Assembly: GCA_016795385.1 (NCBI GenBank)
Contig: JAEUHI010000077.1
Location: 186,001 to 250,000, forward strand
Reading direction: 5' to 3'
Length of the DNA: 64,000 nucleotides
Source: Verrucomicrobiales bacterium
Lineage (GTDB): Bacteria; Verrucomicrobiota; Verrucomicrobiia; Verrucomicrobiales; DEV007
The notes under the pieces are model-generated. The model saw only the letters and a program-made list of their open reading frames with translations, ran no database searches and was not told where the DNA came from. Below, piece after piece: positions 4,590 to 60,828 of the stretch (within the stretch, counting starts at the first letter, position 1; every line of letters begins with the position of its first letter). Position numbers and translations under genes: made by a program.

Positions 4590-5453
4590 ATGAAAACCCT
4601 CACCATCGGTCTCACCCAGTTCGCTGCGGTGGAGGACCCGGCCACGAATCTCGACAGCTCCGAACGCCTCGTCCGCGCCGCCGCGGCGAAGGGTGCTCAG
4701 GTGATCTGCCTGCAGGAGATGTGCTCGACGCTCTACTTCTGCCGCAGCGAGGATCCCGCGCTTTTCCGCTACGCCGAGGCCATCCCGGGCGACACGACGG
4801 CCCGCTTCGGCGCGATCGCGAAAGAGCTCGGCGTCGTCATCGTCCTGCCACTCTTCGAAAAACGCGCCACGGGTCTCTATCACAATACCGCCGCCGTCCT
4901 CGACGCCGACGGCACATGCCTCGGGAAGTATCGCAAGATGCACATCCCCGAGGATCCCGGTTTTCACGAGAAGTTCTACTTCACTCCCGGCGATCTCGGC
5001 TACCGCGTCTGGGAGACGGCCTTTGGCAAAATCGGCGTGCTCATTTGCTGGGACCAATGGTATCCCGAGGCCGCGCGTCTCACCGCGATGCAGGGGGCGA
5101 ACGTGCTTTTCTATCCGACCGCGATCGGCTGGCTCGCCGAGGAAAAGGACACCCTCGGCAAAGCCCAGCACAATGCGTGGGAAACAGTGCAGAAAGGCCA
5201 TGGCGTTGCCAACGGGTGTTTCGTCGCCGCCTCGAACCGCGTGGGTCGGGAAGGCGATACGATCTTCTGGGGACAGTCCTTCGTCAGCAATCCCTACGGC
5301 GAAGTCATCACCCGCACTCCCGTCACCGAAGAGACCGCCGAAGCCGTCGTCTGTGACCTCGAGCAGCTCGAGGAATTCCGGAACATCTGGCCGTTTTTCC
5401 GGGATCGGAGGATTGATAGTTACGATCCGATTCTGAAGCGCTGGATTGATTGA
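4590..5453 (+). CDS. aguB: N-carbamoylputrescine amidase
   Basis: A 287-residue cytoplasmic nitrilase-superfamily enzyme. The catalytic triad is visible: Glu43 in CLQEM, the Lys in KYRKMHIPE near residue 116, and nucleophile Cys153 in ICWDQWYPE. The length and the motifs FHEKFYF and NGCFVAASNRVG are typical of AguB, which hydrolyses N-carbamoylputrescine to putrescine, CO2 and ammonia. The agmatine deiminase gene follows after 20 bases, and the pair gives the arginine-decarboxylase route to polyamines. No arginine decarboxylase is in the window. Confidence 0.92.
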   Translation: MKTLTIGLTQFAAVEDPATNLDSSERLVRAAAAKGAQVICLQEMCSTLYFCRSEDPALFRYAEAIPGDTTARFGAIAKELGVVIVLPLFEKRATGLYHNTAAVLDADGTCLGKYRKMHIPEDPGFHEKFYFTPGDLGYRVWETAFGKIGVLICWDQWYPEAARLTAMQGANVLFYPTAIGWLAEEKDTLGKAQHNAWETVQKGHGVANGCFVAASNRVGREGDTIFWGQSFVSNPYGEVITRTPVTEETAEAVVCDLEQLEEFRNIWPFFRDRRIDSYDPILKRWID

Positions 5454-8825: not shown

Positions 8826-9140
8826 ATGCCCCTCCGCCCCGGATCCGACTCCATCGACCGCCTCCGCCTCGTCTCGATCCTCGACGGCATCTCCTATCTG
8901 ATCCTCCTCGGCATCGCGATGCCGTTGAAGTACCTCGCCGATATGCCCCTCGCCGTCCGCATTGTCGGATCACTCCACGGCTTTCTCTTCCTCGCCCTCT
9001 GTGCCTGCCTCCTCGAGGTGCTCGTGCGCAAGCGCCTCTCCTTCGGCTGGTGCGTCATCGTTTTTGTCTGCGCGCTGTTTCCCTTCGCGCCCTTCGTGCT
9101 CGACCGGAAATTGAAGGCGAAAAGCAACGAGGCTTCCTGA
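8826..9140 (+). CDS. DUF3817 integral membrane protein
   Basis: A 104-residue protein from the ATG at 8826, with three hydrophobic segments: residues around 16-33, 44-64 and 70-90. The pattern LRLVSILDGISYLILLG, MPLKYLADMP and VGSLHGFLFLAL is that of the DUF3817 (YdzA-like) family, whose function is unknown. A longer open frame back to 8742 adds only a low-complexity extension and is rejected. The stop is 13 bases before the phosphoesterase gene, so the two may be co-transcribed. Confidence 0.8.
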   Translation: MPLRPGSDSIDRLRLVSILDGISYLILLGIAMPLKYLADMPLAVRIVGSLHGFLFLALCACLLEVLVRKRLSFGWCVIVFVCALFPFAPFVLDRKLKAKSNEAS

Positions 9141-9153
9141 TCCGTCACGCGCC

Positions 9154-10218
9154 ATGAAGCCACTCCTCGCTTCACTCGTCCTCTTCATGGCCGCCACCCT
9201 TTCCGCCCAGCAGCGCCAGTCGGCCATCACCGGAAAAGGCGAGCTCCCGCCCCTGCCCGCGGGCGCCTTCACCCTCGTCGTCATTCCCGACACGCAGCAT
9301 TACACCGGCCGCGGTTGCAAAGGCTCCCTCGCCTCCGACGCGCCCGTGGTCAACGCCCATCTCGCCGCGCAGGTCGAGTGGATCCTGACCAACCAACAAA
9401 AGGAGAACATCGTCTTCGTCACTCACGTCGGCGACATCGTCGAGGAGAACCGGCGCGAGGAATGGGCGATCGCGAAACAACACCTCGACCGCCTCCGCAG
9501 CGTCGTGCCCTTCGCGCTGAATGTTGGCAATCACGACATGGAGCCCGACGGCGACGCGCGGCTTTTCCAGGAGCATTTCCCCGCCACCAGCTTCGCGGGC
9601 GAGTCCTGGTATCTCGGCACCTACACCCACGAGCGCGCGGACCAACACGTCTCGGCCAACAACGTCAACAGCGCGCAGCGTTTCTCCGCGGGCGGCATCG
9701 ACTTTCTCCATCTCAGCCTCGAGTGCAACGCCCCCGACGACGTCCTCGCCTGGGCCGACCGGATCATCGGACAACACCCCGGACACCGTCTCCTCGTCAC
9801 CACCCACATGGACCTCGGCATCATCGACAAGCCGGAGACCGCGGAGGGTTACATCCACGATCCCAAGGGCCGGATGCGTTGGGTGAAGATCCACGGGAAG
9901 CGCGGCAACAGCGGCGAGGCGATGTGGGAGAAGTTCTTCCGCCGCCAACCGACCCTCGACCTCATTCTCTGCGGCGACCAAAGCCGTGTCACTGCCCTGC
10001 GCCTCGACACGAAGGCGAATGACGGGCATGTCGTGACTTCGTTGCTGAGCGATTACATGAGCGAGCCGGTCCTGCGGCTGATGCGGTTTCGTCCTGACAA
10101 AAACACCATCGAGGTGCTCACGTGGCATGTGGGCGGGGGATTTCTCGTCGAGTCAACGAGGTATGTGGAGGAACGGGAGGCGCACCGGTTTTCGGTGGAT
10201 TGGCGGGTGGGGGAGTGA
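9154..10218 (+). CDS. Secreted calcineurin-like metallophosphoesterase
   Basis: The 354-residue protein has a signal peptide (ASLVLFMAATLSAQ) and the metal-binding blocks of the superfamily in order: VIPDTQHY, THVGDIVE, NVGNHDM and, later, VTTHMDLG. Such proteins hydrolyse phosphoesters using two metal ions. The exported form with a DTQHY opening is common in Planctomycetes and Verrucomicrobia, with no assigned substrate. A TTTGTCAGG word (reverse) codes for PDK near the C-terminus. Confidence 0.82.
   Translation: MKPLLASLVLFMAATLSAQQRQSAITGKGELPPLPAGAFTLVVIPDTQHYTGRGCKGSLASDAPVVNAHLAAQVEWILTNQQKENIVFVTHVGDIVEENRREEWAIAKQHLDRLRSVVPFALNVGNHDMEPDGDARLFQEHFPATSFAGESWYLGTYTHERADQHVSANNVNSAQRFSAGGIDFLHLSLECNAPDDVLAWADRIIGQHPGHRLLVTTHMDLGIIDKPETAEGYIHDPKGRMRWVKIHGKRGNSGEAMWEKFFRRQPTLDLILCGDQSRVTALRLDTKANDGHVVTSLLSDYMSEPVLRLMRFRPDKNTIEVLTWHVGGGFLVESTRYVEEREAHRFSVDWRVGE
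10093..10101 (-). repeat. TTTGTCAGG word, copy 2
   Basis: Inside the phosphoesterase gene; CCTGACAAA codes Pro-Asp-Lys. Confidence 0.9.
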
Positions 10219-10233
10219 GAAAACCTTCATTAG

Positions 10234-10277
10234 AATCCGGGAATTCTTCATGAAATCAGTTGAACAGTTCCCGGATT
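10234..10277. promoter_or_regulatory. Perfect 10-base inverted repeat upstream of methyltransferase
   Basis: AATCCGGGAA at 10234-10243 is mirrored by TTCCCGGATT at 10268-10277, with 24 bases between that include the palindrome TTCATGAA. It lies 19 bases before the methyltransferase ATG, in a gap of only 78 bases. This is where an autoregulatory operator of a restriction-modification operon would be expected. It could also be an RNA hairpin. The repeat is seen directly; its role is inferred. Confidence 0.5.
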
Positions 10278-10296
10278 TAACCGAAGAAAAGACTCG

Positions 10297-11304
10297 ATGG
10301 ATTATCCGGCAAGATTAGAGGCCATTCTGAAGCCATCCCATCAGGGAGATTTGATCGCGTTGGACCTCTTTGCGGGTTGCGGCGGCCTTGCATTGGGTTT
10401 TGAAGCGGCGGGGTTCAAAACGATCGGTTATGAAAAGGCTGCTGATGCGTGTGCCACGTATCGCGCGAACTTGAACCATCCATGCCATGAAGTCACCTTG
10501 GGAACTGAAACCGTCCTGCCGGAATGTGATGTTCTGATCGGTGGTCCGCCCTGCCAACCCTTTTCCGTTGGCGGGCATCAGCTCGGTCTTAACGATTCTC
10601 GAGACGGATTTCCGACTTTCATTGCAGCGGTGGATCGCCTGCGGCCGAAGTTGTTCCTCTTCGAGAATGTTCGCGGCATGCTCTACTCCAATCGGAAATA
10701 CTTCGACGAAATTCTTCAAGTGCTAGCTGGGTTTGGATACACGATCAGTTTCAAGCTCCTCAATGCGCTCGACTATGGTGTTCCACAGAAGAGAGAGAGG
10801 TTGATCGTGGTCGGTCACGAAGATCCCTTTCAGTTTCCTTCGACAACCACGCGAAAAGTTACGGCCGGGGAGGCCCTCCTTGACCTCGCATTTTCCATTC
10901 CTCCTGAGTCCAGGTTTCTCACACCCAGCATGGACCAATACGTGGCAAACTACGAGCGGGCCTCAAAGTGCATCCGGCCAAGGGACCTGCACCTCGATCA
11001 GCCTGCCCGCACTTTGACTTGCCGTAACCTCGCAGGTGCTACCGGAGACATGCACAGGGTGCGACTACCCGACGGGCGGCGTCGAAGGCTGCTCGTTCGT
11101 GAGGCTGCTAGGCTTCAAAGCTTTCCTGACTGGTTTGAGTTCCGAGGTGGGGAAATCAGTCAATACACCCAGATCGGTAACGCCGTTCCACCTCTGATGG
11201 CGTGGCATATCGCGCGTGCCGTCCGTCAGCAATTAGGAAATGAAGTCACCGAACTTCCCTTCATAGACGGTGTGGAAAATCTCCAGCCGGAGCTGGCTCT
11301 TTAA
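10297..11304 (+). CDS. DNA (cytosine-5) methyltransferase
   Basis: A 335-residue C5 methyltransferase that transfers a methyl group from S-adenosylmethionine to cytosine in a specific site. Conserved motifs are in order: I (DLFAGCGGLALGF, residues 23-35), IV with nucleophile Cys86 (GGPPCQPFS), VI (FENVRGM), VIII (QKRERL) and X (YTQIGNAVPP). The target-recognition region between VIII and X is short, typical of Type II enzymes. Base composition is visibly more AT-rich than the flanks, suggesting transfer. The endonuclease gene begins 10 bases after its stop. Target sequence cannot be read from the protein. Confidence 0.92.
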   Translation: MDYPARLEAILKPSHQGDLIALDLFAGCGGLALGFEAAGFKTIGYEKAADACATYRANLNHPCHEVTLGTETVLPECDVLIGGPPCQPFSVGGHQLGLNDSRDGFPTFIAAVDRLRPKLFLFENVRGMLYSNRKYFDEILQVLAGFGYTISFKLLNALDYGVPQKRERLIVVGHEDPFQFPSTTTRKVTAGEALLDLAFSIPPESRFLTPSMDQYVANYERASKCIRPRDLHLDQPARTLTCRNLAGATGDMHRVRLPDGRRRRLLVREAARLQSFPDWFEFRGGEISQYTQIGNAVPPLMAWHIARAVRQQLGNEVTELPFIDGVENLQPELAL

Positions 11305-11314
11305 TTTTGCCAAG

Positions 11315-12286
11315 ATGCCCAAACAAGCTGCCGTTCAAAAGGTGATCAATGAGGCGATCCACATTCTCGAGGTCTGCGGACTTCCCATGAGTGAGAAATC
11401 CTCTCGTCAGCGTGAAAAGACTGCCATGAGCATTCTGGCTGTTGCGGGAGTAACCCACTCCGCGGGATGGCCTTCTGCCGGCGAGGGATCTCCGCTGGGA
11501 ACGCGCAAGATCATTCAATTCATCAACACGCATTTCCAAGAGTCGATATCGGAAGGTTCCTACGATGACATTCGCCGCAAGGATCTGAAAGATGCACTGC
11601 TCGCAGGCCTCGTGATAGCCAGCGCTGGGAAGCCGGGATCGTCGACGAACGATCCCACCCGTGGTTACGCGCTCGATCCGGATTTTGCCACCTTATTGCG
11701 CACCTACGGACAGACCGGCTGGCAAACAAGCGCGTCCTCGTTCATGGCCGGGCGAACCGCCCTGTCCGAACTGCTGCGTGCGAAGTTCGCGACCAATCCA
11801 GTTGCAGTCCAGCTTCCGAATGGCGCAAAGCTCGCGTTGAGCGGAGGCCCGCACAACCTCCTTCAGAAGGCGATCGTCGAGCAGTTCCTGCCACGTTTCG
11901 GATACAACTCGAATGTCCTCTACATCGGAGATACTGCACAGAAATCGCTCCACGTCGACTCACAACTCTGCAACCAGCTGAATCTGATTCTCGATCCGTC
12001 GAAGAAGACGCCCGATGTGATTTCGTATTCGTCCGAGAAAAACTGGCTTTACTTGATCGAGGCCGTCCACACTTTTGGTCCTATCTCCAATGAGCGGCGA
12101 ATGGAACTCACGGAATTTGCCGCGCAATCGAATGCCGGTTTGATTTTTGTCACCGCGTTCCTCGACCTCAAGGCCTTCAGAAAAAGCGCATCGGAGATCG
12201 GGTGGGAGACGGAAGTCTGGATTGCATCGGAGCCCGATCACTTGATTCATTGGAACGGAGACAGGTTTCTGGGACCTCGGACGTGA
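11315..12286 (+). CDS. BsuBI/PstI-family Type II restriction endonuclease
   Basis: From ATG 11315 the protein is 323 residues, close to BsuBI/PstI size. The C-terminal catalytic half matches that family: VLYIGDTAQKSLHVD, TPDVISY, NWLYLIEAVHTFGPIS, LIFVTAFLD, WETEVWIASEPDHLIHW and NGDRFLGP. The N-terminal half (RKDLKDALLAGLV, DPTRGYALDPDF) corresponds to the family's helical DNA-binding domain. BsuBI and PstI cut CTGCAG and are paired with adenine-N6 methyltransferases, whereas the partner here is a C5 enzyme. Specificity may therefore differ. An in-frame GTG at 11270 would overlap the methyltransferase and is less likely. Confidence 0.9.
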   Translation: MPKQAAVQKVINEAIHILEVCGLPMSEKSSRQREKTAMSILAVAGVTHSAGWPSAGEGSPLGTRKIIQFINTHFQESISEGSYDDIRRKDLKDALLAGLVIASAGKPGSSTNDPTRGYALDPDFATLLRTYGQTGWQTSASSFMAGRTALSELLRAKFATNPVAVQLPNGAKLALSGGPHNLLQKAIVEQFLPRFGYNSNVLYIGDTAQKSLHVDSQLCNQLNLILDPSKKTPDVISYSSEKNWLYLIEAVHTFGPISNERRMELTEFAAQSNAGLIFVTAFLDLKAFRKSASEIGWETEVWIASEPDHLIHWNGDRFLGPRT

Positions 12287-12335
12287 GCATACCGAAGAAT
12301 CGGGAAGCAGCTCGGACAAGACCCGGAGGCAGCTA

Positions 12336-13139
12336 ATGAACTTCTTCTCGCGTTGGACAAAACCCCGGTTCGACCCGGAGCGGATCGACTGGCTCTTCAG
12401 CCATTTTTCCTGGCTGCTGGAGAACTACGGGGGCCACGCTTCCTTCCTGCGCAACTACCATCTCATCATGCCCGGATCGAAGGACTTTCCGGTCTCGACG
12501 AAGGTTCCCTCGCTGCAGGTGGAGCAGGTCTTCCGTTCGATCATGCGACACATGGGCATGGGAAACTGGGCGGTGACGCTGGTGCCGATGACCCGTGAAA
12601 ACGCTCCGGACCCGGAATCGTTTGAAAAAGACACCAGCGAGCATTCCATGGGCTACAGCAGTGATGGCGCGGCCGGTTATTTTCAGTTGGACAGTTGGGG
12701 CCGGGCCAAAGTCGGCTACGGCACGGATCTGACCAAGGACTTCACGACCCTGGTCGCGGTGCTGTCGCATGAGGCATCACATTACCTGCTGACCAAAAGC
12801 ATCACGGTGATGCCGGGCGGGTGGAAGGATCTCGAGCCGGTCACGGATCTCACGGCGATCTTCACGGGTTTCGGACTATTCCAGGCCAACACCGCGTCAG
12901 TGGTCTATCACAGTGCCGCGGGCCAGTCGGCATCGAACATGGGTTACCTTCCGGAGTCGGGGCGGGCTTATGCGCTCGCAATCTTCAGCGAACTGTCCAT
13001 GCTCGATCCGGAGTTCGTGGCGAAGCAACTCCGACCCAATCCCCGCGCCAGCTACCGGGCCGCGATCGAAGACATCCGAAATCACCGTGGGTCGGAGATG
13101 AAGCAGCTCGAACTAGCGGTGAACTTGCGGAATTGGTGA
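12336..13139 (+). CDS. Putative HExxH zinc metalloprotease, function unknown
   Basis: A good Shine-Dalgarno (GGAGG, 12325-12329) six bases before ATG 12336 supports this start. The 267-residue protein has no signal peptide. It contains SHEASHYLL near residue 149, an HExxH zinc-protease motif. LEPVTDLTAIFTGFG follows about 20 residues later and could give the third ligand. The region DGAAGYFQLDSWGRAKVGY precedes it. It begins 49 bases after the endonuclease gene on the same strand, so it may belong to the same mobile module. I do not recognise a named family; proteolysis is inferred from the motif only. Confidence 0.6.
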   Translation: MNFFSRWTKPRFDPERIDWLFSHFSWLLENYGGHASFLRNYHLIMPGSKDFPVSTKVPSLQVEQVFRSIMRHMGMGNWAVTLVPMTRENAPDPESFEKDTSEHSMGYSSDGAAGYFQLDSWGRAKVGYGTDLTKDFTTLVAVLSHEASHYLLTKSITVMPGGWKDLEPVTDLTAIFTGFGLFQANTASVVYHSAAGQSASNMGYLPESGRAYALAIFSELSMLDPEFVAKQLRPNPRASYRAAIEDIRNHRGSEMKQLELAVNLRNW

Positions 13140-50933: not shown

Positions 50934-51608
50934 ATGCGTCTCCTCCTCGTCGAAGATTCCGAACGACTCCGCGCGACGCTGGTCCGCGCGCTGGCCCGTC
51001 TCGGCTATGCGGTCGACGAGGCCCGCGACGGCGATGAGGCGATGGCTCATGCGAAGGTCAATACTTATGACGCCATCATTCTCGATCTCATGTTGCCGGG
51101 CAAAAGCGGTCTGGAACTGCTCGAGACGTGGCGCAGGGGCGGCGACCTTTCGCCCGTGATCATTCTCACCGCCCTCGCCTCCGTGGCCGACCGGGTGAGG
51201 GGACTTGCCCTCGGCGCCGATGATTATCTCGTCAAACCCTTCGCGATCGAAGAGCTCGCGGCACGGCTCGAGGCCCTGATGCGGAGGCATCGCGGCCAGG
51301 CCGACTCGCGCATCCGGGTGGCGGATCTCGAGATCGATCTCGCGGCGCGTCTCGTCCGGCGCGGAGGAGCCCCGCTCTCGCTGACCGCCCGCGAGTTTTC
51401 CGTGCTCGAATGCCTCGCGAGACATCCCGGCCGGGTCTTCAGCCGCGAACAGATCGAGATCCGGATCTACGGAGAGTCGGAGAGTCCGCTCAGCAACGCC
51501 GTCGATGCGGCGATCTATTCCCTGCGTCGCAAACTCTCCCCGGGCGACGAGCCGCCTCTCATCCACACCCGGCGCGGACTCGGCTACGTGCTGCAGGAGC
51601 CGTCATGA
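50934..51608 (+). CDS. OmpR-family response regulator
   Basis: A 224-residue regulator. The receiver has the acidic pocket LLVEDSERLR, phospho-acceptor Asp51 in AIILDLMLPG, Thr in ILTALAS and Lys in DDYLVKPF. The C-terminal winged helix is of OmpR/QseB type (SLTAREFSVLECLARHPGRV, IYSLRRKL, IHTRRGLGYVL). The stop overlaps the histidine kinase start (ATGA), so the two are cognate. Targets are not known; the PepSY genes upstream are candidates. Confidence 0.92.
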   Translation: MRLLLVEDSERLRATLVRALARLGYAVDEARDGDEAMAHAKVNTYDAIILDLMLPGKSGLELLETWRRGGDLSPVIILTALASVADRVRGLALGADDYLVKPFAIEELAARLEALMRRHRGQADSRIRVADLEIDLAARLVRRGGAPLSLTAREFSVLECLARHPGRVFSREQIEIRIYGESESPLSNAVDAAIYSLRRKLSPGDEPPLIHTRRGLGYVLQEPS

Positions 51609-52978
51609 AATCGATCCGGCGTCACATGGCCCTCTCGATCGGCGCGGCGGCCGTCGTTCTTTTGATCGGCGGCGGGTCCGGGCTTCACTTCACCTTGCGG
51701 CAGAGCTTGACCGGGCAATTCGACAACGCGTTGATGACGAAAGCCCAGGCGCTCGTGATCGCTTCGGAGGTCGATGATGGAGAATTCGAGATCGATCTCG
51801 ACATCCAGGCCTTCGCGGGATTCGGATCGTCCTCGCCCGGGGATTACTTCGAGGTCTACGATGCGGCCGGGCGGCCCTTGGAGCGATCTCCCTCCCTGGG
51901 CACCTCCGATCTGCCTTTGCCGGAACAGTTGGCCTCGGAAGAGAGCGGCTTCGCCAATCTCACCCTGCCCGGTGGCGTCCCGGGTCGCGCTTACTGGGAG
52001 ACGTTCACCCCCTCCGACGATGACGATCACCAGTTCGACCAACTGCGTATCCTCGTCGCGAGCGACACCTCGAAACTGCGCAAGACGCTGCGCGCGGTCG
52101 CACTGGTCATTCTCGTGTTCGGGGCTTCGGCGATCTTCGCCAGTCTCGTCGTCCTGCACTTTGTGGTGGGTAACGCGTTGAAACCCGTCGATCGTTTGAG
52201 CGCCGACGTGCAGCGCATCGATGTCCAGCGGCTCTCGCAGGGGCTCGCCGTCGAGGACTTTCCGACGGAGTTGCAGGGCGTGGCCGCCAAGCTGAACGAG
52301 CTCCTCGCCCGTCTCGAAATCACCTTCGCGCGCGAGCGGCGGTTCACCAGCGATGCGGCGCACGAATTGCGCACGCCCCTCGCCGAGTTGCGCGCCATGA
52401 CCGAGCTTGCCGTGCGTTGGCCGGAGGAGTTCACCCCTGCTCACGGCAATGAGATGCTCGCCGTGCTCGCGGAGTTGGAGAGCCTCCTCGAAACGCTCTC
52501 GTTGCTCGCCAAGGCGGATTCGGAAACAACGCCCCACCTTGAGTCGGTCGATCTTCGGACCAGCCTCGACGAAGCTCTCGAACGTCTCCACGAGCCCATC
52601 GCCCATCGCCGGCTCGGGCTCGATGTGCGCGTCACCGACGGCGCCTTTCCCACCGACCCGGTGCTCTGGCGCGCCATCGCCGCGAATCTGATCGGAAATG
52701 CCGTACACTACGCCCCGGACGATTCACGGATTTCGATCGAGGCGACACCGCAACGTTTCTCCGTCGGGAATGAAGCGCCCGACCTTTCGCCCGACGACAT
52801 GGAGCGGCTCTTCGAGCGCTTTTGGCGGAAGTCATCCTCTCGCACCGAAAAAGGGCATTCCGGACTGGGGCTTTCCGTCGTGCGTGCGGCTGTCTCGTTT
52901 TTGGGGGGAGAATGCCACGCCTCTCTCGAAGGCACCCGGCTGAAGGTGGAGATCCGCTGGCCCACCGCCGGAGCCTGA
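51605..52978 (+). CDS. Sensor histidine kinase
   Basis: A 457-residue membrane kinase, cognate to the overlapping regulator. Two membrane helices (about 10-30 and 160-180) flank a periplasmic sensor of about 130 residues rich in acidic residues (SEVDDGEFEIDLDIQAF, SDDDDHQFD). HAMP follows (ALKPVDRLSADVQRID), then the H-box (TSDAAHELRTPLAELRAM) and an ATPase domain with N-box (ANLIGNAVHYAPDD) and G-box (KGHSGLGLSVVRAAVSFLGG). The acidic sensor could bind metals or cationic peptides. Confidence 0.9.
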   Translation: MKSIRRHMALSIGAAAVVLLIGGGSGLHFTLRQSLTGQFDNALMTKAQALVIASEVDDGEFEIDLDIQAFAGFGSSSPGDYFEVYDAAGRPLERSPSLGTSDLPLPEQLASEESGFANLTLPGGVPGRAYWETFTPSDDDDHQFDQLRILVASDTSKLRKTLRAVALVILVFGASAIFASLVVLHFVVGNALKPVDRLSADVQRIDVQRLSQGLAVEDFPTELQGVAAKLNELLARLEITFARERRFTSDAAHELRTPLAELRAMTELAVRWPEEFTPAHGNEMLAVLAELESLLETLSLLAKADSETTPHLESVDLRTSLDEALERLHEPIAHRRLGLDVRVTDGAFPTDPVLWRAIAANLIGNAVHYAPDDSRISIEATPQRFSVGNEAPDLSPDDMERLFERFWRKSSSRTEKGHSGLGLSVVRAAVSFLGGECHASLEGTRLKVEIRWPTAGA

Positions 52979-52989
52979 CGTGCCCCGCC

Positions 52990-53466
52990 TCACACCGGTG
53001 GTTCCTCGGTGACGCCTCCGGCCTTTCCGCCGAGACGCGAGACGAGTGCCGCGAGCATCCGGCCCATCTCGCGGGTCTCGCCGGCGTTCATTCCCTTTCC
53101 GAAATCCTCCTCGATGACGCGCTCGTAGGCAGGCCAGGCCGCACGCAAGGCGGCGGCACCCTTTTGGCTCAGCACGGCATAAAACACGCGTCCGTCCTTG
53201 GCGCAGCCCTCGCGACGGAGATAGCCATCCTTTTCGAGCTTGGCGACGCGGCGCGAGATGCCGCTGTTGGAGAAAAAAGTCGCGTCGGCGAGCTCGCTCA
53301 TGCGCAGCCGCTGCCCCGGTGCCTCCGCGAGGGTGATGAGCAGGTCGTAGGTGTCGAACGAGATGCAGCCCGCCTCGAGCAGCGCCGCATCGACCCGCTT
53401 CGTGAGCAAGGCGTGGGCTTGGAGAAAGAGTCGCCAGGCGACTTGGCTGCGGCGGGGACGGGGCAT
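52990..53466 (-). CDS. MarR-family transcription regulator
   Basis: A 158-residue winged-helix repressor: FDTYDLLITLAEAPGQRLRM, SELADATFFSNSGISRRVAKL as recognition helix and wing DGYLRREGCAKDGRVFYAVLS. It is divergent from the ABC-permease operon across a 171-base gap that holds a palindrome typical of MarR operators (53578-53595). It probably represses itself and the operon, released by the compound that the operon degrades. The ligand is unknown. Confidence 0.88.
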   Translation of the reverse strand: MPRPRRSQVAWRLFLQAHALLTKRVDAALLEAGCISFDTYDLLITLAEAPGQRLRMSELADATFFSNSGISRRVAKLEKDGYLRREGCAKDGRVFYAVLSQKGAAALRAAWPAYERVIEEDFGKGMNAGETREMGRMLAALVSRLGGKAGGVTEEPPV

Positions 53467-53577: not shown

Positions 53578-53595
53578 TATTTGCACACGCAAATA
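53578..53595. promoter_or_regulatory. MarR-type operator palindrome
   Basis: TATTTGC-ACAC-GCAAATA is a perfect 7-base inverted repeat with a 4-base centre. It lies between the MarR gene and the permease gene, 43 bases before the permease ATG. The TTGC-N4-GCAA core is the form bound by many MarR dimers. Confidence 0.6.
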
Positions 53596-53637: not shown

Positions 53638-54501
53638 ATGAACGGCATCACGACCTGCGGCACCGGAGTCGACTCCGGCGTTCCGGCGACGCTTCCCCGG
53701 GAGCGGCACCGGCGCCCCGTGAAGTCGCTTTTCGAGTTCCGCCGACAGGTGCCGCGGACTGTCGCGATCGCATCGGCTTTCCTCGCCTGGACCGCTTTCC
53801 TTCTCGGCTGGCATCTCCTCGCCGCGGCCGAGTTCACGCCGGCGCAACTCCTTCCCGGGCCGATCTCCGTCGTCGAGGCGCTCTGGCGGCTGCTCGTCGA
53901 GGGCGCGTTCGGCATGGATATTCTCCAGAGCGTGAAGCGGATCCTCCTCAGTTTCTGCATCGCCGTCGCCATCGCCCTGCCCCTCGGCGTGCTGATGGGG
54001 GCGTTTCCAGTCGTCGAGGGATTCTGGAATCCTCTCGTCTCACCCTTCCGCTACCTCCCCGCCCCTTCTTTCGTGCCCTTGCTTCTGATGTGGCTGGGCA
54101 CGGGCGAATCGCAGAAAATCGCCCTGCTCGTCCTCGGGGTGGTGTGGTTCCTCGTCACCCTGTTCATGGACAACACCAAGGCGGTGCGGGAGGAGCTCGT
54201 CGAATGCTCGCGGACCCTCGGGGCCTCGCGCTGGCAGGTGCTCGCAAAGGTGATTTTCCCCGCGGCGCTCCCCACCTACGTCGATACCGCCCGCCAGATG
54301 CTGGCGGTGAGCTGGACCTACCTCGTCATCGCCGAGATCGTCGCCGCCACCGACGGGATCGGCGCGATGATGATGCGGGCGAAGCGTTTTGTCAGGGTCG
54401 ACGACATCCTCGCCGGCATCCTCGTGATCGGTCTCCTCGGCCTCGCCTTCGACCTCCTTTTCCGGCTCATCCACCGTCTCGGCTTCCGATATCTCCGCTG
54501 A
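53638..54501 (+). CDS. ABC transporter permease, SsuC/TauC type
   Basis: A 287-residue inner-membrane permease with six helices. The EAA loop is EELVECSRTLGASRWQVLAKVIFP, as in nitrate/sulfonate/taurine-family importers. The start at 53638 follows the operator; an in-frame GTG at 53719 (MKSLFEFRRQ on initiation) is an alternative. The binding-protein gene follows after 37 bases, but no ATP-binding subunit gene is nearby, so it must use one encoded elsewhere. A TTTGTCAGG word is read as RFVRVDD near the C-terminus. Confidence 0.9.
   Translation: MNGITTCGTGVDSGVPATLPRERHRRPVKSLFEFRRQVPRTVAIASAFLAWTAFLLGWHLLAAAEFTPAQLLPGPISVVEALWRLLVEGAFGMDILQSVKRILLSFCIAVAIALPLGVLMGAFPVVEGFWNPLVSPFRYLPAPSFVPLLLMWLGTGESQKIALLVLGVVWFLVTLFMDNTKAVREELVECSRTLGASRWQVLAKVIFPAALPTYVDTARQMLAVSWTYLVIAEIVAATDGIGAMMMRAKRFVRVDDILAGILVIGLLGLAFDLLFRLIHRLGFRYLR
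54388..54396 (+). repeat. TTTGTCAGG word, copy 11
   Basis: Inside the permease gene; read as Phe-Val-Arg. Followed by GT. Confidence 0.9.
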
Positions 54502-54538
54502 GCCATTCCCCTCTTTCCTCCAACCATCCGAACCATCC

Positions 54539-55738
54539 ATGAAGCATCCCGAACATCCAAACAGAACCATCCGTGGCCTCGCTCTTCTGAGCCTCGGCCT
54601 CCTCTTCCTCACTTCGTGCTCCGAACCCACGCCGCCGCCGACAGCGCCCGAGGCACCGCCGGCCGCCGAGGCTCCCGCGCCCGCCCCTGCGGAACCGGCT
54701 CCGGCTCCCGCGGAGCCGGCACCCGAAGCCAAGCCCGAGCCGGCACCCGCTCCTGCCGCCGCGGCACCGGCCGCTCCCACAACCGTGAAAGTCTCACTCT
54801 TCTCCTGGCCCGGCTATGGCTTCTGGTTCATCGCCAAAGAGAAGAACCTCGTCCCCGAGATCGCCCTCGATATCCAGATCATCGAAGATCCCTACGAGAG
54901 CTTCGGTCAGATGGCGGCGGGCCAGCTCGACGTCACCTCCTCCACCGTCGAGTATGGTCCGATCGCCGCCGAGGAAGGCGTGCCGGTGAAACTCGTCGCC
55001 TACACGAATCCCTCCTACGGCACCGACAAGATCATCCTCGCACCCGGCATCAACGGCGCGAGCGATCTCGTCGGCAAGGAAGTGGCCGTGCTCGAAGGCG
55101 GACTCACCCAGATCTACATGGGCATCTGGCTCGAGAAAAACGGTGTCGCCTTCGACCAGGTGAAATACACCAACCTCATCATGGACGACGCCGTCGCCGC
55201 CATGGTCAGCGGCAAGGTCGCGGCCGGGGAGTTCTGGGAACCCTTCGGCAGCAACGTCCTCAAGGCCTTGCCCGAGGCCAAGGTCGTCGCCACCTCGAAG
55301 GATGACTATTTCAAGGAAACCGTCCTCCTAGGCGACGGGATGTACATGAGCGGATCTTTCCTCGAGAAAAAGGAAACCGCGATGCTGACGATGAAGGCCT
55401 ACTTCGAAGCCGTGAAATTCTGGAAGGAGAATCCCGCCGAGGCCAACCAGATCATCGCCGATGGACTCAAGTTCTCCGTCGCCGATGTCGAACTCGTCAT
55501 CGGCAAGGATGGCAGCGCCACCGACGGCGGGATCTACCCCTTCAACTGGACCGAGGCCTCCCAGTTCATGGGCTTGACCGAGGGCACGCCGCCCTTCGGC
55601 AAGAACGGCCAGATCGCCGACCACTGGAAACTGACGAACGACTGGTGGATCAAGTTCGGCACCGTCAAGACCTCGCATCCGATGGAGGCCGGGGTCGCGG
55701 TCGAGCCGATGAAGATGCTGAAAGAGAGCGGCTATTGA
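54539..55738 (+). CDS. ABC transporter substrate-binding lipoprotein
   Basis: A 399-residue SsuA/TauA/NMT1-like protein. The lipobox is LTSC (acylated Cys near residue 27), then a 50-residue Pro/Ala/Glu linker and a two-lobe binding domain (SLFSWPGYGFWFIAKEKNL, AAGQLDVTSSTVEYGPIAAEEG, VKLVAYTNPSYGTDKIILAPG, LTQIYMGIWLEKNGV). The family takes up sulfonates, taurine, nitrate or thiamine precursors. The ligand here probably feeds the downstream oxygenase. Its stop overlaps a TTG start for the next gene. Confidence 0.9.
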   Translation: MKHPEHPNRTIRGLALLSLGLLFLTSCSEPTPPPTAPEAPPAAEAPAPAPAEPAPAPAEPAPEAKPEPAPAPAAAAPAAPTTVKVSLFSWPGYGFWFIAKEKNLVPEIALDIQIIEDPYESFGQMAAGQLDVTSSTVEYGPIAAEEGVPVKLVAYTNPSYGTDKIILAPGINGASDLVGKEVAVLEGGLTQIYMGIWLEKNGVAFDQVKYTNLIMDDAVAAMVSGKVAAGEFWEPFGSNVLKALPEAKVVATSKDDYFKETVLLGDGMYMSGSFLEKKETAMLTMKAYFEAVKFWKENPAEANQIIADGLKFSVADVELVIGKDGSATDGGIYPFNWTEASQFMGLTEGTPPFGKNGQIADHWKLTNDWWIKFGTVKTSHPMEAGVAVEPMKMLKESGY

Positions 55739-56430
55739 GTACGAGCCTTCCAGCCACCGTCGTCCGCGATGAGAATCCCGTCCTCCCTGGTGACTTGGTC
55801 AGGATCCCGGGAGGCAGCTTTCTCATGGGCGGGCGCGAGGACGACAAGTTCGCCAGTGCGATCGAGCTGCCCCGGCGCGAGGTGGCGGTGGCGGACTTCC
55901 TCCTCGGACGATTCCCCGTCACCGAGGCGCAGTGGGCCGCCTTTCGCGGAACTGCGTCCGACTCCGCCCTGCCCGTCGTCGGCATCTCGTGGCACGAGGC
56001 GGGGGAGTACGCCGACTGGTTTGCCATGAAAGCCGGACTGCCCTGCCGCCTGCCGACGGAAGCCGAGTGGGAGTATGCCTGCCGCGGCGGATCCGGGACG
56101 ATCTTTCCCGGGGGAAATGATCTCTCCCCGGCGGAGGCGAACTTTCTCTACGACGAATCGGGCCAGCCTGTCGGGGTGGGGCGACGGCTCCCGGTTGGCT
56201 CCTTCGCCCCGAATGCCTTCGGCCTCCACGACATGACCGGCAATGTCTGCGAATGGACCGCCGATTCCTGGCGGAGCCTCTCCGGAACCGATCCTGACAA
56301 ACGCACCATCCGCGGGGGCGCGTGGGATCACCTCCCCCGTCTCCTCCGCTGCTCCTGGCGCGACTGGGCTCCCGTCGATGCGCGCTTCGACAACCTCGGC
56401 TTCCGACTCGCCGCTTCTCTTCCCCGATAA
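55735..56430 (+). CDS. SUMF1/FGE-like protein 1
   Basis: I choose a TTG start at 55735 because TTGA overlaps the previous stop, copying the ATGA overlaps of the rest of the operon; there is no suitable ATG. The 231-residue protein has the formylglycine-generating-enzyme-sulfatase fold: IPGGSFLMGGREDDKF, LPTEAEWEYACRGGSG, GLHDMTGNVCEWTADSW and TIRGGAWDHLPRLLR. The paired catalytic cysteines of true FGE are not at the expected place. It may be an iron- or substrate-binding partner. Cytoplasmic. Confidence 0.8.
   Translation: MSTSLPATVVRDENPVLPGDLVRIPGGSFLMGGREDDKFASAIELPRREVAVADFLLGRFPVTEAQWAAFRGTASDSALPVVGISWHEAGEYADWFAMKAGLPCRLPTEAEWEYACRGGSGTIFPGGNDLSPAEANFLYDESGQPVGVGRRLPVGSFAPNAFGLHDMTGNVCEWTADSWRSLSGTDPDKRTIRGGAWDHLPRLLRCSWRDWAPVDARFDNLGFRLAASLPR
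56293..56301 (-). repeat. TTTGTCAGG word, copy 12
   Basis: Inside SUMF1-like gene 1; codes Asp-Pro-Asp-Lys-Arg. Followed by AT. Confidence 0.9.
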
Positions 56431-57293
56431 TGGAAATCCAACTTTTCAAAACCCTCTGGGGCCACGAAGGCACCCTCGCCGAAGCCGCCGTGCTCTGCCA
56501 CGAAGCCGGCTTCCACGGCATCGAAGGCCCCGTCCCGTCCGATCCCGGCGAGCGCGAGGCCTTCATCGCCACCCTCGGCGAGGCCTCCCTCGATCTCATC
56601 GCCGAAGTCTGCACCGCCACGCCGCCCGGTTTCTACGTGCCGACTCCGGGTGCGACGCCAGCAGACCACCTGCGGTCGCTCCGCGAGGGGATCGAACGCA
56701 GCCTGCCCGCCTCTCCGCGCTTCATCAACACGATGGCCGGATCCGATGCCTGGACCTTCCGCGAGAAGGTCGATTTCCACGCCGCCATCGTTTCTCTCGA
56801 GGCCGAATACGGCATCGCCATCAGCGTCGAGACCCATCGGGGTCGTCCCCTCAACAGCGCCTGGGTCGCCCGCGACATACTCCTCGAGGTACCCGGCCTG
56901 AAGCTGACCTGCGACTTCAGCCACTTCGTCGTCGTCGCGGAGCGGCTCGTGATGGACGAGCACCCTGACATTCTCACCCTGTGCGCCGACCACGCCTTCC
57001 ATCTCCAAACCCGCGTCGGCTACAACCAGGGTCCCCAAGTGCCCGACCCGCGCGCCCCCGAGCACGCCGGCGACCTCGCTGCCCACGAACGTTGGTGGGA
57101 CGAGATCTGGGAAAGCCAGCTCCGCCGTGGCTTCACCGTCTCGACCCTCACGCCCGAGTTCGGTCCCGACGGTTATCTCCACTGCGAGCCCTTCACCCGG
57201 AAGCCCGTCGCCGATCTCTGGGATGTGAACCGCTGGATCGCCCTGCGTCAGCGCGACCGCTTTCAAGAACTCCACCCTGACAAGACCACATGA
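56430..57293 (+). CDS. Sugar phosphate isomerase/epimerase-like TIM-barrel protein
   Basis: ATG 56430 shares a base with the previous stop. The 287-residue protein begins LFKTLWGHEGTLAEAAVLCHEAGF and has the family's metal-site segments: FINTMAGSDAW, AISVETHRGRPLNSAW, LKLTCDFSHFVVVAER and HLQTRVGYNQGPQV. These supply the Glu, Asp, His and Glu typical of AP-endonuclease-2/xylose-isomerase-like barrels. The reaction may be an isomerisation or C-C cleavage in the operon's pathway. It is coupled to the next gene by ATGA. Confidence 0.82.
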   Translation: MEIQLFKTLWGHEGTLAEAAVLCHEAGFHGIEGPVPSDPGEREAFIATLGEASLDLIAEVCTATPPGFYVPTPGATPADHLRSLREGIERSLPASPRFINTMAGSDAWTFREKVDFHAAIVSLEAEYGIAISVETHRGRPLNSAWVARDILLEVPGLKLTCDFSHFVVVAERLVMDEHPDILTLCADHAFHLQTRVGYNQGPQVPDPRAPEHAGDLAAHERWWDEIWESQLRRGFTVSTLTPEFGPDGYLHCEPFTRKPVADLWDVNRWIALRQRDRFQELHPDKTT

Positions 57294-58525
57294 CCACCGC
57301 CGCTCCTCCCTCGCCCGTCTATCATTTTCCCAAAGCCAGCCCCGTTCCCGACGGGATCGAGGCGCTCTTTTCGCAGGTCCTCGAAGCTGCCGCGCTGCCG
57401 CGGGAAAAGGCGCAATCGTCTCCCGCCGGGATCTACACCTCCCCCGAGTTTCTCGATTTCGAGACCCAGGCGATCTTCCGCAAGGAGTGGATCTCCCTCG
57501 CCCACGTCTCGCAGGTGCCGAACCCCGGCGACTACCTCCGCGTCGACCTTTGCGGCGAACCCATGCTCGTGACCCGCGGCAAGGACGACGTCGTGCGTGT
57601 CCTCTCCCGCGTCTGTCGCCACCGCGGCATGGATCTCATGCCCGAAGGCGGCAGCCTGCCCAACCGGGGCAACCAGCGCGTCATCCTTTGTCCCTACCAC
57701 CTCTGGAGCTATGATCTCAATGGACGGATGTTAGGGGCGCCCGAGATGCAGCAGGCCGACGGTTTTGACCGCAGCGAGGTCTGCCTGCACCAGTTCCGCA
57801 GCGAGATCTGGGAGGGTTTCGTCTTCGTCACGCTCAATCCGGAGGCCCCGCCGCTCGCGGAGAAGTTCGGACGTCTCCGCAGCGAATTCCTTTCCGGCTG
57901 GAACATGGGCGAAGCGAAGCTCGTCTGGGACCAGCATTGGGACTGTGGCTTCAACTGGAAAATCCTCCTCGAGAACTTCATGGAGGCCTACCACCACCTC
58001 GGCGCCCATCGCAAGACGCTCGAGCCCTTCCTGCCCGCGAAGGGTTGCTGGACCGTGCCCGAAGATCCCGACTTCTCGGCGATGCACCTGCCTCTGCGAC
58101 CCGACCTCGTCGAGACGATCCGCACCACCGGAGAGGCGGGCACCACGATGACTCCCTTCCCCGGGCTCGGGGTCGAGGATTACACCGAGTGGTGGGTCTT
58201 CCTTGGCTATCCGACCTTCCTCCTCTTCACCGCGCCCGACCGCGTCTACTGGTATCGGCTCCTGCCGACCGGACCGGAGACGTGCAGCCTAACCACCACT
58301 TTGCTCGTCCACCCGGCGACGATGGAGCGCGCGGACTACAACGAGCTCTATCAAAGCGAGATCGAAGCCGCGATCAACTTCCACCTCGAGGACATGGAGG
58401 TGTGCGCCGCGACGCAGAACGGGATGCGCTCCAGCGCCTACGAACCCGGACGCCTCAGCCACCTCGAGGAGCCGATCTGGCAATTTCAGCGCTACCTCGC
58501 CAACAAGATCCGCGAGTTCGCATGA
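57290..58525 (+). CDS. Rieske-type ring-hydroxylating oxygenase, alpha subunit
   Basis: A 411-residue oxygenase. The Rieske [2Fe-2S] ligands are CRHRGMDL and CPYHLWSYDLNG (Cys/His pairs near residues 107 and 128). The non-haem iron site has NWKILLENFMEAYHHLGAHRKT. The family oxidises aromatic rings or demethylates betaines; NWK..ENF.E.YH is shared with choline/glycine-betaine/carnitine-type oxygenases. No reductase or ferredoxin gene is in the operon, so electrons must come from an unlinked partner. Overlaps both neighbours by four bases. Confidence 0.92.
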   Translation: MTTAAPPSPVYHFPKASPVPDGIEALFSQVLEAAALPREKAQSSPAGIYTSPEFLDFETQAIFRKEWISLAHVSQVPNPGDYLRVDLCGEPMLVTRGKDDVVRVLSRVCRHRGMDLMPEGGSLPNRGNQRVILCPYHLWSYDLNGRMLGAPEMQQADGFDRSEVCLHQFRSEIWEGFVFVTLNPEAPPLAEKFGRLRSEFLSGWNMGEAKLVWDQHWDCGFNWKILLENFMEAYHHLGAHRKTLEPFLPAKGCWTVPEDPDFSAMHLPLRPDLVETIRTTGEAGTTMTPFPGLGVEDYTEWWVFLGYPTFLLFTAPDRVYWYRLLPTGPETCSLTTTLLVHPATMERADYNELYQSEIEAAINFHLEDMEVCAATQNGMRSSAYEPGRLSHLEEPIWQFQRYLANKIREFA

Positions 58526-59313
58526 GCGGATTCTTCTCCCTCGGCGGGAAGGTCGCCGTCGTCACCGGAGGCAGCTCCGGGATCGGCGCGGCCATCGTCA
58601 CGCGATTCCGCGCCGCCGGTGCCGTCGTCGTGATCGCCGACCGACTCGAACCGCCGGAGGAGAAGGGGGAGTTTGTCAGGGTCGACGTTTCGAGCGAAGC
58701 CGAGGTCTCTTCGGCGCTCGAATCGGTCGTCGCGAAACACGGCAATCTCGATCTCCTCGTGAACAACGCCGGTATCCAGCCACTCGGGGTGCGGTTCGAA
58801 GACCTTACCGAATCCGTCGTGCGGCGGACTTTCGACGTCAACGTGAACGGCACCATCTGGGGCATCAAACACGGCTCGCGCCTCCTCTCGCCGGGCGGCC
58901 GCATCGTCAATCTCTCCTCCTTCGTCGGTCTCCTCGGCGTGCCGGCGGGCACCGCCTACGCCGCCTCGAAAGCGGCCGTCGCCCATCTCACGAAATGCGC
59001 CGCGCTCGAGCTCGCTCCGCGTGCCATCACCGTGAATGCGATCGCCCCGGGCACGATCCGCACTCCCGCGGTCGAGGGCATCCCGGACAATCCCGAGATT
59101 CCCTTCGCCGAATCGCGCACGCCGATGGGACGTCTCGGCATGCCCGCCGAGGTCGCGGCCGCGGCGCATTTCCTCTGTTCCGACGAGGCCTCCTTCATCA
59201 CCGGCGTGATTCTCCCGGTCGATGGCGGCATCGCCGCCGGTTGGGAGCGCTACGACCTCACCCTTCCCTCCGAGATTTCCCCCGACGGCTCCTGGCATGA
59301 CCCTGAATCCTGA
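58522..59313 (+). CDS. Short-chain dehydrogenase/reductase
   Basis: A 263-residue classical SDR: cofactor motif VVTGGSSGIGAA, NNAG (LLVNNAGIQPLG), Ser and the Tyr-Lys pair (IVNLSSFVGL, AYAASKAAVAHLTK), and the family tail GVILPVDGGIAAGW. The Asp after beta-2 (VVVIADRLEPP) suggests NAD(H). It probably oxidises an alcohol made by the oxygenase. Its stop lies inside the next gene: the overlap is 17 bases, and a TTTGTCAGG word straddles it. Confidence 0.92.
   Translation: MSGFFSLGGKVAVVTGGSSGIGAAIVTRFRAAGAVVVIADRLEPPEEKGEFVRVDVSSEAEVSSALESVVAKHGNLDLLVNNAGIQPLGVRFEDLTESVVRRTFDVNVNGTIWGIKHGSRLLSPGGRIVNLSSFVGLLGVPAGTAYAASKAAVAHLTKCAALELAPRAITVNAIAPGTIRTPAVEGIPDNPEIPFAESRTPMGRLGMPAEVAAAAHFLCSDEASFITGVILPVDGGIAAGWERYDLTLPSEISPDGSWHDPES
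58672..58680 (+). repeat. TTTGTCAGG word, copy 13
   Basis: Inside the SDR gene; read as Phe-Val-Arg. Followed by GT. Confidence 0.9.
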
Positions 59314-60169
59314 CAAATACCTCCCTCCCCCGCGCTTCATCTGGCCCGAGGGCAAGCGCTGCGCCGTGATGCTCTGTTTCGACGTCGATGGCGAGACCAC
59401 CGCCCTCTCCGAGGATCCCGAACTGGCACGGCGCCTCACGACAATGTCGCAGTGCGAATATGGTCCCACCGTCGGAGTGCCGCGTCTCCTCGGGCTGATC
59501 GATCATCTCGGCGTGCCCGCGACCTTCTTCATCCCTTCCTTCATCGCGATGAAACATCCCGAAATGACCCGCGCCATCGCCGCGTCGGGTCATGAGATCG
59601 GAGCGCATGGCCACCTTCACGAGAAGCTCGCCTACCTGAATCCGGAGGAAGAGCGCGACGTGCTCCGCCTCAGTCTCGGCATCCTCGAGGAAGTGACCGG
59701 AAAACGTCCCGCCGGATTCCGCGCTCCCTGGTTCGAAATCAACCCGGGCACGACCGATCTCCTCGTCAGCGAAGGGTTCCTCTACAATGCCAGCCTCATG
59801 AGCGACGACGTTCCCTTCATCCACGGCAACGGGCTCGTCGAGATCCCCGGGCAGTGGATGCTCGAGGATTGGGAGCAGTTCGCCTTCAATCCCGATCCGG
59901 CCTGGGGCGTCATCCCCGAGGATTGTGAAAAAGTCTATCGGCTCTGGTGGGACGAGTTCGAGGCGATGCGGGACTTCGGCTGCTGTTTCGTCCTCACCCT
60001 GCATCCCTGGCTGAGCGGGCGTCCCTCGCGCGTCCGTCTCCTCGAGCGTCTCCTCCGCGACATCGCCGCGGCAGGCGACGTGTGGTTTTGTCAGGGTGAA
60101 GAACTGGCCCGATGGGTCCTCGCCAATCCGGGCGCGCGCCGCGTCCTCGACTTCGATGCCCGGGGATGA
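59297..60169 (+). CDS. Polysaccharide-deacetylase-fold amidohydrolase
   Basis: A 290-residue NodB-homology protein without a signal peptide. Metal motifs are CFDVDGETTAL (Asp) and SGHEIGAHGHLHEKLAY (two His); FRAPWFEINPGT follows. The FDVDGE form and cytoplasmic location resemble HpPgdA/PuuE-type members that act on cyclic amides or imides rather than on polymers. Within a Rieske/SDR operon it could open an amide ring. A TTTGTCAGG word is read NPDKY at the start and another FCQGE near the end. Confidence 0.85.
   Translation: MTLNPDKYLPPPRFIWPEGKRCAVMLCFDVDGETTALSEDPELARRLTTMSQCEYGPTVGVPRLLGLIDHLGVPATFFIPSFIAMKHPEMTRAIAASGHEIGAHGHLHEKLAYLNPEEERDVLRLSLGILEEVTGKRPAGFRAPWFEINPGTTDLLVSEGFLYNASLMSDDVPFIHGNGLVEIPGQWMLEDWEQFAFNPDPAWGVIPEDCEKVYRLWWDEFEAMRDFGCCFVLTLHPWLSGRPSRVRLLERLLRDIAAAGDVWFCQGEELARWVLANPGARRVLDFDARG
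59309..59317 (-). repeat. TTTGTCAGG word, copy 14
   Basis: Straddles the SDR stop codon and reads Asn-Pro-Asp-Lys in the overlapping deacetylase-like gene. Followed by AT. Confidence 0.9.
60087..60095 (+). repeat. TTTGTCAGG word, copy 15
   Basis: Inside the deacetylase-like gene; read as Phe-Cys-Gln-Gly. Followed by GT. Confidence 0.9.
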
Positions 60170-60828
60170 TCGTGCCGCCGACCATCGTCGTCGCCGGCGG
60201 CGACTTTTTCCTCGGGGCGTTGCCTCAGGACAAATACGCCAACACCACCGAACTCCCGCGCCGCCGCGTCGCGGTCGAGTCCTTCGAGTTGGGAAAATAC
60301 CCGGTGACGAACCGCGAGTGGGCCGCCTTTGCTCCCGGTCACCACGCGGCGCCCGACCTGCCGGTCACCAACGTCGCCCGGCAAGAGGCGCAGGCCTATG
60401 TGGCGTGGTTGAGCCGCGGGACCGGCGAACGCTGGCGGCTCCCCACCGAGATCGAGTGGGAATATGCCTGTCGCGCCGGCAGTGAAACGCTCTTCCCCCA
60501 AGGCGATGATCTTGCACCGGCCGACGCGAATTTCCTCTACGACGAATCGATCGAGCGGGTCGGACCAGGGGGCCTCACGCCCGTCGGCACCTATCCTGCA
60601 AATGCCTGGGGTTTCCACGATCTCCTCGGCAACGTGAACGAATGGACCGCTTCTCCCTGGACCCCGTCCCACGAGCCCGACGCCATGATCGTGCCCGGCT
60701 TCTTCACGATCCGCGGCGGATCGTGGGATGGGCTCCCGAGGCTCCTGCGCCCATCGTGGCGGGATGGTGTGGCGGAGACAACGCGATGCGATCACCTGGG
60801 GTTCCGGGTGGTGCGGGGTGGTGAATAG
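60166..60828 (+). CDS. SUMF1/FGE-like protein 2
   Basis: A 220-residue paralogue of the gene at 55735, coupled to the previous gene by ATGA. Parallel blocks are GGDFFLGALPQDKY, LPTEIEWEYACRAGSE, ANFLYDESIERVG, GFHDLLGNVNEWTAS and TIRGGSWDGLPRLLRPSWRD. It too lacks the paired FGE cysteines, and Cys-to-Asn in GNVNEW distinguishes it from its sister. The two may form a heteromer. It is the last gene of the operon. Confidence 0.82.
   Translation: MIVPPTIVVAGGDFFLGALPQDKYANTTELPRRRVAVESFELGKYPVTNREWAAFAPGHHAAPDLPVTNVARQEAQAYVAWLSRGTGERWRLPTEIEWEYACRAGSETLFPQGDDLAPADANFLYDESIERVGPGGLTPVGTYPANAWGFHDLLGNVNEWTASPWTPSHEPDAMIVPGFFTIRGGSWDGLPRLLRPSWRDGVAETTRCDHLGFRVVRGGE

Follow-up and report, generated by a model that had tools for sequence, protein, structure and literature searches.

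Probable link of a Rieske oxygenase operon of a Verrucomicrobiales bacterium with guanidino compounds

A stretch of 64,000 nucleotides from a Verrucomicrobiales bacterium (GenBank assembly GCA_016795385.1, 6.49 Mb in 91 contigs, whose close relatives are uncultured Verrucomicrobiales/Akkermansiaceae) corresponds to positions 186001-250000 of contig JAEUHI010000077.1, here C32; it is called the window below, and positions are those of the window unless a contig or locus is named. At 53638-60828 it holds an operon of eight open reading frames (ORFs), all on the plus strand, for an ATP-binding cassette (ABC) permease, a substrate-binding protein, two SUMF1-like proteins, a xylose-isomerase-like triosephosphate isomerase (TIM) barrel, a Rieske oxygenase, a short-chain dehydrogenase/reductase (SDR) and a NodB-fold hydrolase. 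The operon is likely linked with guanidino compounds, and we place somewhat better than even confidence in a more specific reading, namely that the Rieske enzyme oxidatively releases guanidine from an imported guanidino compound. A preliminary description had seen in these genes the degradation of a nitrogen-containing small molecule with its own importer, which fits all of the findings; its view that the set cannot be mapped to a known pathway has to be given up, as the wider locus ends in the guanidine carboxylase pathway.

Association with the guanidine carboxylase pathway

In relatives the genes form part of a longer cluster, the first part of which contains a second binding protein, permease and ATPase, a creatininase-family gene, one or two type III glutamine-synthetase-like genes and a second Rieske gene. 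The second part consists of the window's set followed by genes for a NikR-like regulator, UAAP1, UAAP2, a urea/guanidine carboxylase and allophanate hydrolase. In some 15 loci from several families the Rieske/TIM/SUMF1 set is contiguous with UAAP1, UAAP2 and, contig permitting, the TIGR02712 carboxylase. At locus L015 the carboxylase scores 1848 bits against TIGR02712 (cut-off 1304), and the two UAAP proteins and the allophanate hydrolase are likewise above their cut-offs. All 17 of 17 carboxylases, that of the window's own genome included, have aspartate at the position of N1330 in Kluyveromyces lactis urea amidolyase (KlUA), which we take to be the specificity site meant, the numbering fitting exactly. 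According to a recent review, guanidine carboxylases are distinguished by this aspartate and urea carboxylases by asparagine (PMC12186494). The strictly defined creatininase was tried as an identity for the creatininase-family neighbour and rejected (114 bits against a cut-off of 235).

The window's own genome has the complete guanidine carboxylase pathway on the same contig as the operon, with the NikR-like/UAAP1/UAAP2/carboxylase set at about C32:49.8-55.4 kb (locus L054; UAAP1 at C32:54140-54838) and allophanate hydrolase at C32:90899-92542. It also has a second cluster (L046, C39:9000-24799) with an importer including its ATPase, a creatininase-like gene, two type III glutamine-synthetase-like genes and a paralogous Rieske protein of 44% identity. 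The smallest version of the system, in a genome of another family within the one order (G401, locus L086), runs on one strand through binding protein, permease, ATPase, SUMF1-like protein, TIM barrel and Rieske oxygenase to the NikR-like regulator, UAAP1, UAAP2, carboxylase and allophanate hydrolase, with an extra small ORF at 4777-5196; the names given there at the UAAP1/UAAP2 positions are CgdA/CgdB. Because they are absent from this minimal form, the SDR, the NodB-fold hydrolase, the glutamine-synthetase-like and creatininase-like proteins and the second SUMF1-like protein are optional. The guanidine carboxylase pathway as described (gca, cgdAB, atzF; PMC12186494) is thus complete in the window's genome, contiguous with the Rieske set in relatives and matched in its aspartate residue; the known operons, however, import guanidine itself and lack a Rieske/TIM/SUMF1 front end.

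Co-occurrence across genomes agrees with this linkage. In a survey of 387 genomes spread over the phylum, the Rieske gene is present in 7 and UAAP1 in 45, and all 7 Rieske genomes have UAAP1 (P 2e-7, or 2e-6 leaving out the window's genome, with relatedness not corrected in either value); the close TIM subfamily is found in the same 7 (at least 219 bits, the next best scoring at most 151). Within the family, 24 of 25 Rieske genomes have UAAP1 and all 25 a glutamine-synthetase-like gene. The dependence is one-sided, as predicted of a feeder into guanidine degradation: the guanidine pathway is present in many genomes that lack the Rieske gene, but the Rieske gene in hardly any that lack the pathway. 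A search for the gene order in other genomes, which the preliminary description had proposed, shows that the set recurs in more than 20 loci, far more than chance could account for.

The TIM barrel also extends to another phylum, with relatives of 42-49% identity in Proteobacteria. The oxygenase beside it in 11 proteobacterial loci is of the 2-oxoglutarate/iron (2OG) type in 9 and of a desaturase-like membrane type in the other 2 (L101, L103), whose importers are 54-64% identical to that of the window. The desaturase-like oxygenases, which have histidine boxes, lie between the TIM barrel and the importer (L101:10414-11445, L103:8570-9826). On a Paraburkholderia sprentiae plasmid a TIM barrel (49%) and a 2OG oxygenase directly precede UAAP1, UAAP2, carboxylase and allophanate hydrolase, and the locus also holds a substrate-binding protein, a MarR regulator, a permease and an ATPase; its importer genes are 51%, 53% and, for the ATPase, 67% identical to those of the C39 cluster. 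The solved chain nearest to the proteobacterial 2OG oxygenase is named ethylene/succinate-forming enzyme, and the ethylene-forming enzyme and plant homoarginine hydroxylases free guanidine by hydroxylation beside the guanidino group (PMC12508155). The window's Rieske oxygenase is unrelated in fold and class to the ethylene-forming enzyme and plant homoarginine-6-hydroxylase, both of them 2OG oxygenases.

The Rieske oxygenase and alternative substrates

The Rieske non-heme iron oxygenase alpha subunit (57290-58525; PF00355 and PF00848; gene families were assigned by Pfam/NCBIfam profile matches) retains in an alignment of 14 proteins the C-x-H and C-x2-H motifs of the cluster, the E-x2-H-x4-H motif and C-terminal acidic ligand of the iron site, and glutamate as the bridging residue. 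A comparison with characterised Rieske enzymes, as had been suggested earlier, places carnitine and stachydrine-type demethylases among the best solved relatives, and the best family model, glycine betaine monooxygenase GbcA (NF058607), gives 153 bits against a cut-off of 670. The N-demethylases of the GbcA, CntA and Stc2 type are alike in domain order, ligand residues and best sequence matches, but the GbcA cut-off is far from reached and the surrounding genes belong to guanidine, not betaine, catabolism. Used as a probe on plasmids, the Rieske protein was uninformative, yielding only relatives of 31-36% identity in sarcosine oxidase, choline or unrelated contexts; the useful probes were the binding protein and the TIM barrel.

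Degradation of another small nitrogen compound, such as betaine or an N-methylated amine, with the guanidine pathway adjoining merely for shared nitrogen scavenging, would suit these demethylase relatives and the distant GbcA match, as well as the type III glutamine-synthetase-like and creatininase-like genes of the longer clusters. We consider it unlikely, however: the Rieske gene depends on the guanidine pathway and not the reverse, the minimal form comprises hardly more than importer, SUMF1, TIM, Rieske and guanidine genes, and the TIM barrel stands beside a different oxygenase in a guanidine carboxylase operon of another phylum. Distinctly less probable still is that the Rieske enzyme demethylates methylguanidine (or N-methyl compounds derived from creatine or creatinine) in the manner of MgdH, with the TIM barrel replacing MgdL. 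MgdH and MgdL do carry out this chemistry within a guanidine carboxylase operon (PMC12508155), and Rieske N-demethylases are among the nearest relatives; yet the presence of an SDR and a NodB hydrolase suggests that the substrate contains more carbon than one methyl group, and the agmatinase and arginase-family genes close to relatives speak for alkyl guanidino compounds. Homarine catabolism, the subject of a recent marine operon, was considered and dropped when the guanidine linkage made homarine unnecessary.

Importer, TIM barrel and accessory proteins

The TauC/SsuC-like permease (53638-54501; PF00528) and the NMT1/SsuA-like lipoprotein binding protein (54539-55738; PF09084) fall below both curated cut-offs for the TauABC/SsuABC taurine/sulfonate importers, with 133 bits against 342 for TauC and 89 against 163.5, respectively. 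ABC uptake, as claimed before, has its permease and binding protein; the importer is nevertheless incomplete, there being no ATPase in the operon. The nearest candidate is in the genome's own C39 cluster (L046), and this ATPase probably serves the operon importer. Roseobacter proteins share 54-57% identity with the binding protein, and genes for agmatinase, arginase-family proteins, amidinotransferase and 5-guanidino-2-oxopentanoate decarboxylase lie in the neighbourhood of individual members of this group (names beside the binding protein, NodB and TIM relatives are annotations as deposited).

The TIM barrel (56430-57293; PF01261) has no solved relative by sequence search, and its fold matches xylose-isomerase-like isomerases with Z 19.9 and a root-mean-square deviation of 3.1 over 244 residues at 13% identity. 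E134, D162, H191 and E243 are invariant across Verrucomicrobia and Proteobacteria; with such a fold and these four residues as its ligands by analogy, the barrel should be a metal enzyme. A role for it as a lyase is tentative at best. The NodB-fold hydrolase (59297-60169; PF01522) belongs to the PuuE/HP0310 branch (3RXZ, E 6e-76; HP0310-type 3QBU, E 4e-34) and scores 91 bits against a cut-off of 425 for PuuE allantoinase (TIGR03212). The earlier assignments of this protein as an amide hydrolase and of the barrel as an isomerase are both unproven; the two family assignments are confirmed. NodB relatives adjoin agmatinase and SDR genes on a Roseovarius plasmid and a Pseudomonas plasmid. Pseudomonas aeruginosa plasmid pF061_1 (L110) has in succession at 8839-12385 an agmatinase-family gene, a NodB-fold hydrolase (42% identical to that of the window), an oxidoreductase and an SDR; this row lies near transaminase and semialdehyde dehydrogenase genes and looks like a plasmid-borne guanidino-acid route. 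The SDR of the operon itself is at 58522-59313 (PF13561, E 1e-63).

SUMF1-like proteins a (55735-56430; PF03781, E 1e-48) and b (60166-60828; PF03781, E 2e-46) consist of an FGE-like domain only, at 220-231 residues. The predicted model of b (pLDDT 94) has a fold nearest to PvdO, its best structural match, FGE and ToxD. The FGE active site has two cysteines (human C336 and C341); neither position is conserved here, a GG.WD..PR..R stretch standing in for the cysteine motif, and the alignment has no conserved cysteine or histidine at all. The N-terminal DinB-like iron-binding domain of EgtB/OvoA is also absent. The proteins are thus related to PvdO, ToxD, FGE and EgtB in fold and family, but differ from FGE in its cysteines and from EgtB in its iron domain. 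A SUMF1-like gene accompanies the Rieske gene, and next to the 2OG and desaturase-like oxygenases none was recognised; we would guess that the protein serves the Rieske enzyme as an accessory or binding partner. That two such proteins in one operon are unusual, as had been remarked, is tempered by 30 PF03781 matches in the whole genome, many in long ORFs, whereas the tie to the Rieske enzyme is distinctive. A biosynthetic cluster, with the Rieske, SDR and SUMF1-like proteins making a specialised metabolite after the example of PvdO, ToxD and EgtB, would agree with the fold of b. It is very improbable, as the importer comes with a binding protein, relatives have a pathway for nitrogen release in one gene run with the set, and no peptide synthetase, ligase or exporter was seen in the operon.

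Gene order and regulation

The eight ORFs, with their strand, coordinates and families, are as first described, and a recount of the overlaps from the binding protein gene onward gives 4, 1, 4, 4, 17 and 4 bases; SUMF1-like gene a has a TTG start in a TTGA overlap. The permease and binding protein genes are separated by 37 bases. The ATG at 53638 is preferred for the permease, because a longer ORF from 53581 would start inside a palindrome. This perfect palindrome, TATTTGC-ACAC-GCAAATA (53578-53595), lies between the permease gene and a divergent MarR-family regulator gene (52990-53466, minus strand; PF12802, E 5.7e-12) that has an equal position in relatives; both gene and palindrome had been left out of the preliminary gene list. 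With up to one mismatch allowed the site is single in the genome, and even at two mismatches only 0.02 matches are expected in the window. Its arms are identical in 7 related loci and have one mismatch in 2 more, the four-base spacer being variable, and loci without the MarR gene are mostly without the palindrome, an exception being L013, where the site is present and no MarR gene was called. From its position and conservation the palindrome is probably the MarR operator, through which the dedicated regulator would control the operon. Response-regulator-like and histidine-kinase-like ORFs are found at 50934-52978, directly upstream of the MarR gene, and the kinase-like ORF is kept beside the operon in close relatives (L010, L011, L049).

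The guanidine carboxylase genes are headed by the NikR-like regulator (L015:11295-11831; L086:7926-8384; L054, of the window's genome, 10845-11438 on the minus strand). It retains one of what we take to be the four nickel ligands of E. coli NikR, and nickel regulation was set aside on this account. Since no guanidine riboswitch was found, the protein may be a sensor of guanidine or a related ligand.

Proposed pathway

We suggest that the ABC importer, probably with the ATPase of the second cluster, would take up a molecule with a guanidino group, and that the Rieske oxygenase would hydroxylate the carbon beside the guanidino nitrogen to give a hemiaminal. The TIM barrel would then process the hemiaminal, perhaps by cleavage to guanidine plus an aldehyde. 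Guanidine would be converted by way of carboxyguanidine and allophanate to ammonia, through guanidine carboxylase, carboxyguanidine deiminase and allophanate hydrolase, and in the longer versions the carbon remainder would go to the SDR and the NodB-type hydrolase. In the long forms, the glutamine-synthetase-like and hydrolase genes might serve to protect an amine end with a gamma-glutamyl group, in the way known from putrescine degradation, and agmatine would then be a candidate substrate; this is speculation.

MgdH and MgdL provide a precedent for an oxygenase with a dedicated lyase in a guanidine pathway, N-(hydroxymethyl)guanidine being unusually stable (PMC12508155). The gca/mgdHL system of Vreelandella boliviensis is alike in having an iron oxygenase and a partner within a guanidine carboxylase operon, an ABC importer, and an oxidation that frees guanidine (PMC12508155). 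MgdH, however, is a 2-oxoglutarate oxygenase, MgdL a beta-barrel lyase, and control is by guanidine riboswitches (PMC12508155), whereas the window's system has a Rieske oxygenase with a xylose-isomerase-like TIM barrel as its partner, and so is not of the MgdH/MgdL type, together with SUMF1-like proteins, MarR and NikR-like regulators and no riboswitch found. In the open-access full-text literature we found no characterised operon with the same gene set, and no paper connecting guanidine with either a Rieske oxygenase or a TIM barrel of this kind.

Several points weigh against oxidative guanidine release. Among the genes of the cluster none was recognised as a Rieske reductase; the guanidine module of the genome that holds the window is not adjacent to the operon but about 185 kb distant; simple release of guanidine does not explain what the creatininase-like and type III glutamine-synthetase-like genes of the longer clusters do; and no guanidine riboswitch matched at Rfam gathering scores in the window or 7 related loci. 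The widest form of the proposal remains doubtful. In it the TIM barrel would be a novel metal-dependent enzyme for the cleavage of hydroxylated alkyl guanidines, with three unrelated and interchangeable oxygenases (Rieske, 2OG and desaturase-like) to serve it; the Rieske enzyme would be the first member of its class that sets guanidine free, and the system a riboswitch-free source of guanidine in bacteria of more than one phylum.

Implications

The biological source of guanidine is an open question according to a 2025 review (PMC12186494), and known guanidine-producing reactions are limited in number (PMC12508155). The proposed system would add an oxygenase class so far not known to yield guanidine, a partner protein that different phyla and oxygenase types have in common, and named proteins, instead of riboswitches, as regulators. 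If it is correct, import and oxidation of a guanidino compound would supply these bacteria with guanidine as a nitrogen source.

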